Shown: piece by piece, positions 26,214 to 48,918 of the stretch | How positions within the stretch are numbered: position 1 is the stretch's first letter | Layout: each line of letters starts with the position of its first letter | Translations under genes and position numbers: made by a program | The notes under the pieces: generated by a model | Told to the model about the DNA's origin: nothing | Seen by the model: the letters and a program-made list of their open reading frames with translations, nothing else | The model's database searches: none | DNA from: Runella slithyformis DSM 19594 | Lineage (GTDB): Bacteria > Bacteroidota > Bacteroidia > Cytophagales > Spirosomataceae | Direction of reading: 5' to 3' | Length of the DNA: 64,000 nucleotides | Assembly: GCF_000218895.1 (NCBI RefSeq) | Contig: NC_015703.1 | Span: 4,229,001 to 4,293,000 of the forward strand

Positions 26214-26272
26214 GGCAGCGAGGAGCGATAAGCCGGTTTTCTTCTCTCTCCTCACTCCTGACACCTGAAAAA
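26214..26272. repeat. Palindromic heptamer-type repeat before the sigma factor gene
   Basis: The left side contains AGCGAGG and AGCGATA. The right side has the 7-base units TCTCTCC, TCACTCC and TGACACC. The pattern (AGGAG on one side, CTCCT on the other) resembles the element inside kdsB at 48384. Confidence 0.6.
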
Positions 26273-43525: not shown

Positions 43526-43580
43526 GTATGAAATCTATGAATGAATACAGTCTTCATTTATTGATGCTATTAACTACGTA

Positions 43581-43628
43581 AACACTAAAGCCGCCCGAAA
43601 ATGATGATTTTCGGGCGGCTTTAGTGTT
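43581..43628. terminator. Strong terminator hairpin, left boundary of the DUF6934 cassette
   Basis: A perfect 22-base stem (43581-43602 with 43607-43628) with loop GATG. It can end the M56 transcript and the opposing 52-residue gene. Its central 36 bases (43587-43622) are the exact reverse complement of those in the hairpin at 44329-44364. Confidence 0.93.
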
Positions 43629-43647
43629 TATATCACTACGTTTACAT

Positions 43648-44324: not shown

Positions 44325-44368
44325 ATACAAAGCCGCCCGAAAATCATCATTTTCGGGCGGCTTTGTAT
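44325..44368. terminator. Strong terminator hairpin, right boundary of the DUF6934 cassette
   Basis: A 20-base stem (44325-44344 with 44349-44368) with loop CATC, directly after the leuS stop. It should end leuS transcription. The core is the reverse complement of the hairpin at 43581. Confidence 0.93.
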
Positions 44369-47197
44369 TTACAACACCACGTTGACAATTCGTTTGGGCA
44401 CTACCACCACTTTTCTGGGTTCTTTGCCTTCCAGCCATCGTTGAACGGTCTCGTTGGCCAAAACGCCCTGCTCAATGTCTTCCTTCGACATATCTATGGG
44501 GAATGGAATGTTCGCGCGTACTTTGCCGTTTATCTGAATCGGATATTCAAACGAGCTTTCTTCCAGGTATTTAGGGTTAAATACGGGGAAAGACGCGGTT
44601 GAAACCGTGCCGGCTTCATTGCTCAATGCTACCCACAACTCTTCCGTAATGTGCGGAGCATACGGTGCTAACAAAATAAGCATATCCTGCAAAATGGCCT
44701 TTTTATGGCATTTTAAGTCGCTCAAATCATTGACCGCGATCATAAACGTCGACACGACCGTATTGAACGAAAGCCGCTCGATGTCTTCTTCCACACGTTT
44801 GATGGTGCGGTGCAACACTTTCAATTCTTCGGCGGTAGGCTCGGCATCGGTCCATTTTTGTTTGCCGCTTTGGTCCTCAAAAAACAACCGCCAGAACTTA
44901 CGCAGAAAGTTGAACGTACCGCTGATGCCATTCATGTTCCAAGGTTTGGCATCGGTCAAGGGCCCTAAAAACATTTCATACATACGCAGGGTATCGGCCC
45001 CGTATTTTTCAACGATATTATCCGGATTGACTACGTTGAACTTCGATTTTGACATTTTCTCCACTTCCCAACCGCAGACGTATTTTCCCTCTTCCAGAAT
45101 AAATTCGGCATTGATGAAATCTTCACGCCAGTTTTTGAAAGCGGCTACATCAAGGACGTCGTTATCCACAATGTTTACATCGACGTGCAGTTTGGTGGTT
45201 TCGTATTGATCTTTTAAACCGTGAGAAACAAACACAGGGTGTCCGCTTTCACTTGATTTTAAGCGATATACAAAGTTGCTGCGTCCCTGAATCATGCCCT
45301 GATTCAGCAACTTAGCGGCAAATTCTTCGTGCGGTACGAGGCCCAAGTCTTTCAGGAATTTATTCCAGAAACGACTGTACAGCAAGTGTCCCGTGGCGTG
45401 CTCGGAGCCGCCCAAATAAAAGTCAACGCGCTGCCAATAGTCGATGGCTTCTTTGGAGGCAAAAGCGTCATTGTTTTGCGGGTCCATGTAGCGGTACCAG
45501 TACCACGAAGAACCGGCCCAACCGGGCATGGTGCTTAATTCATATTCGTATTCACCTTTGTATTTCCAGCCTTCGGCACGTCCCAAAGGCGGTTCGCCCG
45601 TTTCGGTAGGGAGATATTTATCAATTTTCGGTAATTCCAACGGCAGCTCACTTTCATCAATCAGGTAAGGAATATCGTCTTTAAAATACACCGGCACAGG
45701 CTCTCCCCAATAGCGTTGGCGACTGAAAACGGCATTGCGCAGGCGGTATTGCACTTTTCCTTTGCCCAATTTGCGTTCTTCCAGCCATTTAGTCAACGTA
45801 TCCGTAGCTTCCTTGTACGTCTTGCCGTTGATGATGCCGGAGTTGATGTAGCGACCTTCTTTCGTGTTATCGGCCTGTTGGTCAATGTCTTTCTGACTGT
45901 CCAATATCGGAAGAATCGGTAATCCGAAATTAGTGGCGAAATTCCAGTCACGCTGATCGCCGGAAGGTACACCCATAACAGCCCCCGTTCCGTAGCCGGC
46001 CAGTACGTAATCCGCTAAGAAAATGGGTACTTTTTCTTCATTCAGGGGATTGATGCAATAGCTGCCCGTAAACACGCCCGTTACTTTCTTTTCGGCCATT
46101 CGGTCTACTTCACTGCGGCTTGCGGCCCATTTGATGTAGGTTTCGACAGCTTCTTTCTGCTCCGGAGTGGTCAAATCCAACGCCCATTCGTGCTCGGGTG
46201 CCAACACCATAAAGCTAACGCCGTAGATGGTGTCAACGCGAGTGGTGAAAACCTCGATACATTTTGGATTTTGGATTTTGGATTTTGGATTTTGGGAATC
46301 ATTCGGCAATCCCAAATCAGCAATAGCAAATTTTACACTTGCTCCTACGCTTTTTCCTATCCAGTTGCGTTGCTGTTCTTTCAGCGGCTCGGGCCAGTCG
46401 ATGGTGTCTAAACCTGCCAACAGACGGTCGGCATATGCCGTAATGCGCATAGACCACTGTTTCATCAGCTTACGCTCTACGGGAAATCCGCCGCGCTCCG
46501 ATACGCCGTCTTTTACTTCGTCGTTGGACAACACCGTTCCCAGGCCGGGGCACCAGTTGACGTACGATTCTTCCGGAAAGGTAAAGCGGTATTTGAGCAA
46601 TAGTAATTGCTGCTCTTTTTTGCTCATGGCGTTCCATTCTTCGGCCGAAAATTCGGGGGTCTCTTCGTCACGAACGGCGTTGACGGCGGCCGAACCTCCT
46701 TTTTCAAACTGTGATACTAAGTGCGCGATGGGTAATGCTTTGTCGGCGTCTTTGTCGTAATAATGATTGAACAGCTGCATGAAGATCCACTGCGTCCATT
46801 TGTAATAGTTGGGATCAGACGTGCGGACCTCGCGGCTCCAGTCGTAGCTGAAACCGATGTTTTTCATTTGACCGATAAAGGTGCTGATATTTTGCTCGGT
46901 CGTAATGGCCGGATGCTGACCCGTTTGGATGGCGTACTGCTCGGCGGGAAGGCCAAAGCTGTCGAAGCCCATCGGGTGCAGCACGTTAAAGCCTTTGAGT
47001 CTTTTATAACGCGAAATAATGTCAGAAGCAATATAGCCCAACGGATGCCCTACGTGCAGCCCGGCCCCCGAAGGGTAAGGAAACATATCGAGGACATAGT
47101 ATTTGGGTTTATTATGGTCAATATCAGTCTTGTAGATTTGGTTTTCTTCCCAAAACTGCTGCCATTTTTTTTCAATTTCGCGGTGATTGTATTCCAT
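44369..47197 (-). CDS. leuS: Leucyl-tRNA synthetase with repeat-derived insertion
   Basis: A 942-residue class I synthetase that charges tRNA-Leu. The HIGH motif is HVGH at 48-51 and the KMSKS motif is intact (KMSKSKFNVV). The editing domain begins at about 285, with TTRVDTIYG in place of TTRPDT. At residues about 295-312 there is an added segment, LGLPNDSQNPKSKIQNPKC, between FAIAD and IEVFTTR. Most homologues have only a few residues here. It is encoded by five tandem ATTTTGG heptamers (46261-46295). The site is a surface loop at the entry to the editing domain, so the enzyme probably works. The gene is followed directly by a strong hairpin. Confidence 0.97.
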   Translation of the reverse strand: MEYNHREIEKKWQQFWEENQIYKTDIDHNKPKYYVLDMFPYPSGAGLHVGHPLGYIASDIISRYKRLKGFNVLHPMGFDSFGLPAEQYAIQTGQHPAITTEQNISTFIGQMKNIGFSYDWSREVRTSDPNYYKWTQWIFMQLFNHYYDKDADKALPIAHLVSQFEKGGSAAVNAVRDEETPEFSAEEWNAMSKKEQQLLLLKYRFTFPEESYVNWCPGLGTVLSNDEVKDGVSERGGFPVERKLMKQWSMRITAYADRLLAGLDTIDWPEPLKEQQRNWIGKSVGASVKFAIADLGLPNDSQNPKSKIQNPKCIEVFTTRVDTIYGVSFMVLAPEHEWALDLTTPEQKEAVETYIKWAASRSEVDRMAEKKVTGVFTGSYCINPLNEEKVPIFLADYVLAGYGTGAVMGVPSGDQRDWNFATNFGLPILPILDSQKDIDQQADNTKEGRYINSGIINGKTYKEATDTLTKWLEERKLGKGKVQYRLRNAVFSRQRYWGEPVPVYFKDDIPYLIDESELPLELPKIDKYLPTETGEPPLGRAEGWKYKGEYEYELSTMPGWAGSSWYWYRYMDPQNNDAFASKEAIDYWQRVDFYLGGSEHATGHLLYSRFWNKFLKDLGLVPHEEFAAKLLNQGMIQGRSNFVYRLKSSESGHPVFVSHGLKDQYETTKLHVDVNIVDNDVLDVAAFKNWREDFINAEFILEEGKYVCGWEVEKMSKSKFNVVNPDNIVEKYGADTLRMYEMFLGPLTDAKPWNMNGISGTFNFLRKFWRLFFEDQSGKQKWTDAEPTAEELKVLHRTIKRVEEDIERLSFNTVVSTFMIAVNDLSDLKCHKKAILQDMLILLAPYAPHITEELWVALSNEAGTVSTASFPVFNPKYLEESSFEYPIQINGKVRANIPFPIDMSKEDIEQGVLANETVQRWLEGKEPRKVVVVPKRIVNVVL
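46261..46295 (-). repeat. Five tandem heptamers inside leuS
   Basis: Five exact ATTTTGG copies (CCAAAAT on the coding strand). A change of one copy would shift the leuS frame, so copy number must be held or changed in threes. Confidence 0.95.
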
Positions 47198-48129: not shown

Positions 48130-48918
48130 ATGATTATCGGAATTATTCCCGCCCGCTACGCTTCGACGCGTTTTCCCGGCAAACCCCTCATTGATATTCA
48201 GGGCAAAAGCATGATTCGGCGCGTGTATGAGCAGGCGTCGCAGGCTAAATGCCTTTCGGAAGTGATCGTAGCTACCGACGATGAGCGCATTCTCAACCAT
48301 GTACAATCCTTCGGCGGCAAAGCCGTCATGACGCACCCCGATCACCCCAGCGGCACCGATCGTTGTTGGGAAGCGTACTGTTTAGGAGTGAGAAGTCAGG
48401 AGCCGGAAGCCAAGGGTACTTCCTCTTACTCCTCACTTCTGACTTCTCACTCCTATGTTATAAACATTCAGGGCGATGAGCCTTTTGTGGCTCCCGAACA
48501 GATTGATGAGTTGGGCGCGGTGCTGGATGGGAGTGTAGAGTTGGCCTCACAGATGATTCCCGTCAGCGACCACGACGTACTGTTTGATGTAGGAGAAGCG
48601 AAAGTGATTGTCAATCAATCGTTTGAGGCTATTTATTTCAGCCGGCAGGTGTTGCCGTTTTTAAAAGGGATAGATCCGAAAGAATGGCACAATCATCATA
48701 CGTATTATCGCCAGGTAGGAATGTATGCATACCGGTCCGATATTTTAGAGAAAATCACTCAACTGCCCGTTTCTGACTTGGAAAAAGCCGAATCGCTGGA
48801 GCAGCTGCGCTGGATTCAAAACGGATACCGGATCAAAATGGGGCTTACGGCCTACGAAAGTCACTGCATCGATACACCCGAAGATGTGGAGAAGGTATTA
48901 CGTTTGATGAACGCATAA
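48130..48918 (+). CDS. kdsB: 3-deoxy-manno-octulosonate cytidylyltransferase with in-frame palindromic insertion
   Basis: A 262-residue enzyme that makes CMP-Kdo for lipopolysaccharide. Motifs are IPARYASTRFPGKPL at residues 6-20, SGTDRCWEA at 74-82 and INIQGDEPF at 111-119. Between the last two there is an extra stretch of about 15-20 residues (LGVRSQEPEAKGTSSYSSLL, then TSHSYV) that is absent from typical KdsB. It is encoded by a palindrome of 7-base units (48384-48454). The downstream catalytic regions look normal. The gene overlaps nothing; corA follows three bases later. Confidence 0.95.
   Translation: MIIGIIPARYASTRFPGKPLIDIQGKSMIRRVYEQASQAKCLSEVIVATDDERILNHVQSFGGKAVMTHPDHPSGTDRCWEAYCLGVRSQEPEAKGTSSYSSLLTSHSYVINIQGDEPFVAPEQIDELGAVLDGSVELASQMIPVSDHDVLFDVGEAKVIVNQSFEAIYFSRQVLPFLKGIDPKEWHNHHTYYRQVGMYAYRSDILEKITQLPVSDLEKAESLEQLRWIQNGYRIKMGLTAYESHCIDTPEDVEKVLRLMNA
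48384..48454. repeat. Heptamer palindrome embedded in kdsB
   Basis: The units AGGAGTG, AGAAGTC, AGGAGCC and GGAAGCC run into CTTCCTC, TTACTCC, TCACTTC, TGACTTC and TCACTCC. The outer 16 bases (48384-48399 and 48439-48454) are a perfect inverted repeat. The 7-base phase runs across nearly the whole element. Confidence 0.9.

Follow-up and report, generated by a model that had tools for sequence, protein, structure and literature searches.

The window analysed here is a 64,000-nucleotide stretch of the 6.92-Mb genome of Runella slithyformis DSM 19594 (G000:C4:4229001-4293000, where G000 denotes this genome; NC_015703.1), which contains the kdsB gene for CMP-KDO synthetase and, in frame within it, a short palindromic element composed of TNACTYC heptamers, referred to as family A (Table 1). 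The kdsB open reading frame (ORF) matches Pfam CTP_transf_3 with an E-value of 3.7e-47 and is the single KdsB match in the genome, where no plain second copy was found. A preliminary description had placed a palindromic heptamer element of 70 nucleotides with perfect 16-base arms at 48384-48454; the element is indeed present in frame but spans 73 nucleotides (48383-48455), and its outer arms, while perfect, are 17 nucleotides long. Taken over 20 nucleotides (48383-48402 and 48436-48455) the arms are 95% complementary. The DNA encoding the loop has a period of seven, with an identity of 0.50 at lag 7 versus 0.14-0.30 at lags 5, 6, 8 and 9. The element is read through between the GTDRC and NIQGDEP motifs, the two conserved KdsB motifs between which it had been assigned before, and the resulting loop of 31 residues compares with 17 in the shortest congeners and a median of 14 in 78 loci outside the genus, which gives approximately 14-17 extra residues (15-20 in the earlier estimate). 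In an AlphaFold2 prediction based on the window KdsB and 31 relatives (mean predicted local distance difference test score, pLDDT, of 90.3) the best matches among solved structures are KdsB structures, with template modelling (TM) scores of 0.83 and 0.88. Residues 93-103, which lie within the element and between a helix (75-88) and a strand (109-112), have pLDDT values below 50. The KdsB fold is predicted to be intact, with a flexible loop at the element. A known RNA family was considered for the element and rejected, as there are just sub-threshold matches to long-hairpin microRNA models which are taken as chance.

Table 1. Positions of kdsB, its element and related elements, numbered from the first letter of the window
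Feature	Position	Strand	Description	Basis
kdsB	48130..48918	+	CMP-KDO synthetase, 262 aa	ORF listing, Pfam CTP_transf_3, AlphaFold model match to solved KdsB structures
Family A element	48383..48455	no strand	TNACTYC heptamer palindrome, 73 nt, codons 85-109 of kdsB	
Left perfect arm of kdsB element	48383..48399		17 nt	
Right perfect arm of kdsB element	48439..48455		17 nt	
Heptamer element in leuS, site 1	46262..46318	-	ATCCAAA units and GATTTGGGATT arm, in frame in leuS (ORF 44369-47197, minus)	
Degenerate family A element	26218..26268 (approximate)	no strand	between two genes	

Family A is dispersed through its own genome. The pattern TNACTYCTNACTYC, which represents two adjoining TNACTYC units, has 65 matches compared with 8 for the reversed control. 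These correspond to 38 places, and every one of them was inspected; a simple ORF caller puts 31 of them outside ORFs and seven inside, in agreement with the earlier proposal that a lipopolysaccharide enzyme carries a dispersed intergenic element. Three of the seven are internal to recognisable proteins, namely KdsB, HisF (an identity supported by Pfam) and a putative glycosyltransferase which we take to belong to family 39, three are located near ORF ends, and in the last the ORF itself is unsupported. The intergenic relative of the element that had been reported at 26214-26272 exists, although in degenerate form; G009, G011 and G012 have clearer family A palindromes, made of different units, at the orthologous position. 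A scan of 324 kb of the same genome (eight spread regions plus 164 kb from the start of the window) at a fixed threshold detects 28 inverted repeats outside ORFs and two within them, one being the kdsB element, and a single one in shuffled sequence.

The KdsB loop was compared in 14 genomes, 13 of the genus and G018, which belongs to another genus of the same family. Among these the loop is filled, differently filled or plain, and its length ranges from 17 to 33 residues. When sorted by eye, TNACTYC heptamers are found in G000, G002 and G009 (degenerate in the latter two), RGTTYAC-type heptamers in G011, G012 and, more diverged, in G004, and GC-rich CCCCCAATGGGGG-type palindromes in G006, G007, G010 and G018; G001 contains an uncertain repeat, and none is evident in G003, G005 and G008. 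Identity at lag 7 amounts to 0.49-0.53 in the loops of G000, G011, G012 and G004. The GC-rich and RGTTYAC patterns recur elsewhere in several of these genomes and their reversed controls give no matches, so that the dispersal of all three families is backed by such controls. The same loop is recurrently occupied by different families. On a tree of RpoB, LeuS and KdsB without its loop, Fitch parsimony requires at least seven changes of family, and three for presence and absence alone; the minimum drops to six without G001 and to five without both G001 and G004, the least certain genomes. The clearest switch is that of G011 and G012, which carry RGTTYAC and group with the TNACTYC-bearing G009 (support 98). 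Judged from these sequences, the KdsB loop appears to undergo a turnover of repeat families and not just a single insertion. The interpretation first offered for kdsB, that of a dispersed element, is supported in this respect but is incomplete, as congeners fill the same loop with unrelated DNA, mostly repeats or palindromes that belong to other dispersed families.

The preliminary description would have been refuted by the same loop, with unrelated DNA, being present in all Cytophagales KdsB proteins, which is not what is observed. Of 148 genomes sampled from the order, 125 have a KdsB match, and outside the genus and G018 the best loci have short loops: among the best 80, of which two were dropped as unreadable, the remaining 78 have 13-25 residues with a median of 14, and eight of the longest loops outside the genus are plain by eye. 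The same loop of KdsB in a metagenome-assembled genome of the Prevotellaceae contains an in-frame tandem array of approximately five CAACTTT-type heptamers (L103:8254-8290), apparently an independent case far outside the genus. A conceivable explanation for the longer loops is that they are adaptive protein features whose DNA is repetitive by happenstance, which would agree with all loops read staying in frame and with the single KdsB match in G000. Different species have unrelated peptides at one site, however, and the KdsB loop is predicted to be flexible, which makes this explanation scarcely credible.

Comparable loops are found in LeuS, HisF, SelD, GcvP, KdpA, IcmF, PurH and a phosphatase; all of these except HisF presumably carry the right names, which were given by recognition from sequence and not by family search. 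The leuS gene is located approximately 0.9 kb from kdsB and has three element-type loops, for each of which both empty and filled alleles are seen. The element at site 1 has a diverged copy in G006, whereas other congeners contain none or a different palindrome, and its hairpin is weak in the own genome (z -1.0); sites 2 and 3 are plain in most congeners. By eye, KdsB and LeuS are the only proteins with palindromic in-frame inserts among 64 ortholog clusters around kdsB. Long inserts are present at LeuS site 3 in G012 (89 residues, L148) and G007 (51 residues, L145) versus 23-29 residues in the other genomes read, and that of G007 is hairpin-positive yet not an obvious element. Two perfect hairpins of 20-24 nucleotides at 43579-43630 and 44325-44368 share AAAGCCGCCCGAAAAT arms and are terminator-like, the second adjoining the end of leuS.

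Ten loop sites, six of which were picked since G010 has an element there, were scored for hairpins with z-scores from mononucleotide shuffles and RNA energies, leaving out at each site the genomes without a readable ortholog. Values of -3 or below are obtained for 33 of 120 loop/genome pairs (25 of 110 without G010) as compared with 5 of 400 windows placed at random in these genes. By site, the counts are 5/14 for KdsB, 1/11, 2/11 and 1/11 for LeuS sites 1, 2 and 3, 6/11 for SelD, 2/13 for the phosphatase, 2/13 for PurH, 6/14 for GcvP, 4/9 for KdpA and 4/13 for IcmF. In the own genome the KdpA loop is filled (z -9.9) and the GcvP loop borderline (z -2.6), in both cases by other GC-rich palindromes. 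The HisF site was picked from the own genome rather than from G010 and is readable in 13 of the 16 genomes searched, the other three being dropped. In 11 of the 13 its loop derives from a repeat or forms a palindrome, with at least four kinds distinguished by eye, and it is plain in G005 and G008; the hairpin z-score lies below -3 in five genomes and is -3.0 in G004. The glycosyltransferase loop is filled in G000 and G006 and plain in the other seven of nine genomes read. Hairpins can be formed by different families at one and the same place, which might indicate a role at kdsB for a hairpin in mRNA or DNA, its sequence turning over while its structure is kept, and the P6b region of the Nostoc trnL intron offers a parallel (PMC4476775). 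Such a role is very improbable given that 9 of the 14 KdsB loops miss z -3, that those of G005 and G008 are short and plain, and that the same pattern is found in other, unrelated enzymes.

In the GC-rich elements two near-palindromic units stand in inverted orientation on either side of a variable spacer, and 42 strict full-length copies are present in six of the eight genomes searched. Within the two genomes in which they were placed, 22 of 25 lie inside ORFs (13 of 16 in G010, 9 of 9 in G006). This is no enrichment, because approximately 80% of the G010 sequence lies within ORF masks, but it is a striking lack of ORF avoidance. The family is not confined to a single reading frame, giving SPPTPNGG in G010 and APLPPMGE in SelD of G006, and its arms carry a species signature that, counted by eye, is CGATGG in 24 of 24 arms of G018 and CAATGG in 28 of 32 of G010. 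A period of seven was dropped for this family, in which identity at lag 7 is 0.17-0.29. The SelD match of the own genome is located off the main contig, on contig C1 (G000:C1:72255-72626; 107 kb, perhaps a plasmid). The extra length of the own RpoB (G000:C4:2061725-2065663, L230) was considered as a further element and rejected; it is an in-frame, non-palindromic tandem duplication of 34 residues (EVVSISRNEV...GQKSI twice) which was not seen in any of the 16 further genomes that have a match to rpoB.

Taken together, kdsB appears to exemplify a wider exchange of elements at fixed protein loops, one that involves several enzymes of the genus. Several observations weigh against this reading and the explanation proposed below. 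The family states of the KdsB loop were assigned by hand and the loops sorted into families by eye, it is uncertain that the loop of G001 contains a repeat (0.33 identity at lag 7), and many supports in the tree are low (43-78). RGTTYAC is sparse, with three matches in G011 and four in G012, two of each representing the kdsB copy. Hairpins are weak in the KdsB loops of G002, G009, G011, G012, G004 and G001 (z -2.0 to 0.2), and those of HisF are not significant in G000, G009, G011 and G012 (z -0.7 to -1.5). The left boundaries in GcvP are common to G007, G010 and G003, which implies that sharing is partly due to inheritance. Random stretches of G010 contain two inverted repeats within ORFs in 320 kb versus six in shuffled sequence, alongside 29 outside ORFs. 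Finally, neither a mobility protein nor an intermediate nor a target duplication was found, and spreading is deduced from distribution. In G005, six in-ORF palindromes occur in 80 kb, five of which are near-copies of one repeat. Because random in-ORF palindromes do not exceed shuffled sequence, the effect of the elements is one at particular loops and is not genome-wide.

In the cleanest pairs of filled and plain alleles, host sequence has been replaced. The phosphatase loop has 22 residues in the filled genes of G007 and G010, the same length as in 10 of the 11 further genomes read; in G007 and G010 a conserved host segment is gone and the element stands in its place, leaving the length unchanged. 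Filled alleles at LeuS sites 2 and 3 lack approximately 18 nucleotides of the host sequence of near relatives. No target duplication is seen by eye at these two sites or in the phosphatase, and divergence blurs the other junctions. This may be taken further, in that a replacement process distinct from transposition would overwrite short host stretches with hairpin cassettes, with fixed enzyme loops exchanging unrelated families and being continually rewritten, a view that we hold as tentative and doubtful. End joining dependent on Ku is an unlikely route, since Ku (PF02735) has no match in 18 genomes; among 14 control genomes only Bacillus subtilis is positive.

The SelD element of G003 carries a second palindrome at matching positions in its two arms (by eye), which suggests that one arm was copied from the other. 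Template switching is a known route to palindromes, described for nematomorph mitochondria (PMC6649704), and palindromes could arise locally by this means in fast-evolving loops with no mobile element involved. This is rather improbable, as it does not explain the presence of the same units at many unlinked places in a genome. Somewhat better placed, while still unlikely, is the possibility that the elements are non-autonomous, of the type of miniature inverted-repeat transposable elements (MITEs) or of the hairpin-forming doublets of repetitive extragenic palindromic sequences (REPs) known as REPINs, and are moved by a Y1 transposase of the REP-associated tyrosine transposase (RAYT) kind, with some copies landing in frame. 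Y1_Tnp matches are present in 16 of the 18 genomes, the GC-rich elements are REPIN-like, and REPINs go with RAYTs (PMC3116915). In addition, the high-scoring Y1 gene at G000:C4:2954919 lies 1.3 kb from the family A copy at 2953584 (L167), with one gene between them. For the other seven Y1 places on the own chromosome, however, the closest family A copy is 25-273 kb away, and G010, with 16 strict elements, has just one weak Y1 match (E 2.9e-5). Twelve Y1 regions, mostly weaker-scoring, RAYT-sized genes (one in G010, four each in G000 and G006, three in G018) taken with approximately 2 kb of flank in both directions unless the contig ended sooner, are free of family A and family B patterns. The lack of visible target duplications and the replacement of host sequence also speak against transposition of this type.

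It is proposed instead, as probable on balance, that a dispersed family of hairpin heptamers without a coding gene of its own uses permissive enzyme loops as docking sites whose occupants are exchanged. The kdsB element would be one copy of this short, mostly intergenic family, and copies would move rather than arise locally. A few loops in the genus and G018, including those of KdsB, LeuS, HisF, SelD, GcvP, KdpA and IcmF, may serve as docking sites in which an in-frame landing is tolerated. Once occupied, the loop would be free of sequence constraint, and its occupant could later be overwritten by an element of another family, decay or be lost. The arms may be kept complementary via template switching within the hairpin, and the element would do nothing useful for the host protein.

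To our knowledge, palindromic DNA entering proteins is known mainly from Rickettsia. In the present genus, unrelated repeat families are exchanged at one enzyme loop among congeners, with empty and filled alleles found together. This makes testable both the movement of tiny elements without an evident transposase and the tolerance of foreign sequence by a loop of a conserved enzyme. It also calls for caution, as differences of loop length in conserved proteins can record mobile DNA rather than protein adaptation.

Among the papers listed by a literature search in a limited library, little of it aimed at Runella, there is no report of such loop elements in this group. REPINs, in which two short near-palindromes are inverted relative to each other and separated by a spacer (PMC3116915), resemble the 42 strict GC-rich elements in this layout; REPs are extragenic, unlike the GC-rich family in the two genomes classified, whereas family A alone would fit such a location. 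In Nematomorpha mitochondria, inverted repeats within coding sequence are gained and lost between species (PMC6649704), but these palindromes are perfect, long and mitochondrial and their arms code for conserved residues, while the arms described here code for unconserved loops. Period-7 arrays are shared with two further systems. In the P6b region of the Nostoc trnL intron, which is built of heptamer units, one class of hairpin has repeatedly been replaced by another in place (PMC4476775), and the leuS unit ATCCAAA matches the Nostoc Class I motif TDNGATT on the opposite strand; P6b is part of an intron and not of a protein gene, in contrast to the repeats inside conserved enzymes. TAACTGA arrays occur in Beggiatoaceae, Cyanobacteria and five Bacteroidetes, and those inside ORFs are mostly peripheral or in small hypothetical proteins (PMC4679880). 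The units TNACTYC and RGTTYAC differ from that unit, for which no search was made. The nearest known kind appears to be that of the Rickettsia palindromic elements (RPEs), short palindromic repeats of several families, many of which lie in frame in the genes of one genus (PMC10969869), the likeness being one of description. RPEs are of approximately 150 bp with a conserved peptide per family, whereas the kdsB element is about half as long, the spacer is variable, the GC-rich family is read in different frames, and unrelated families are exchanged at one orthologous loop where they replace host sequence. The comparison with RPEs made in the preliminary description is apt nonetheless, as in both cases a palindromic repeat is dispersed in one genome and placed in frame in protein genes.
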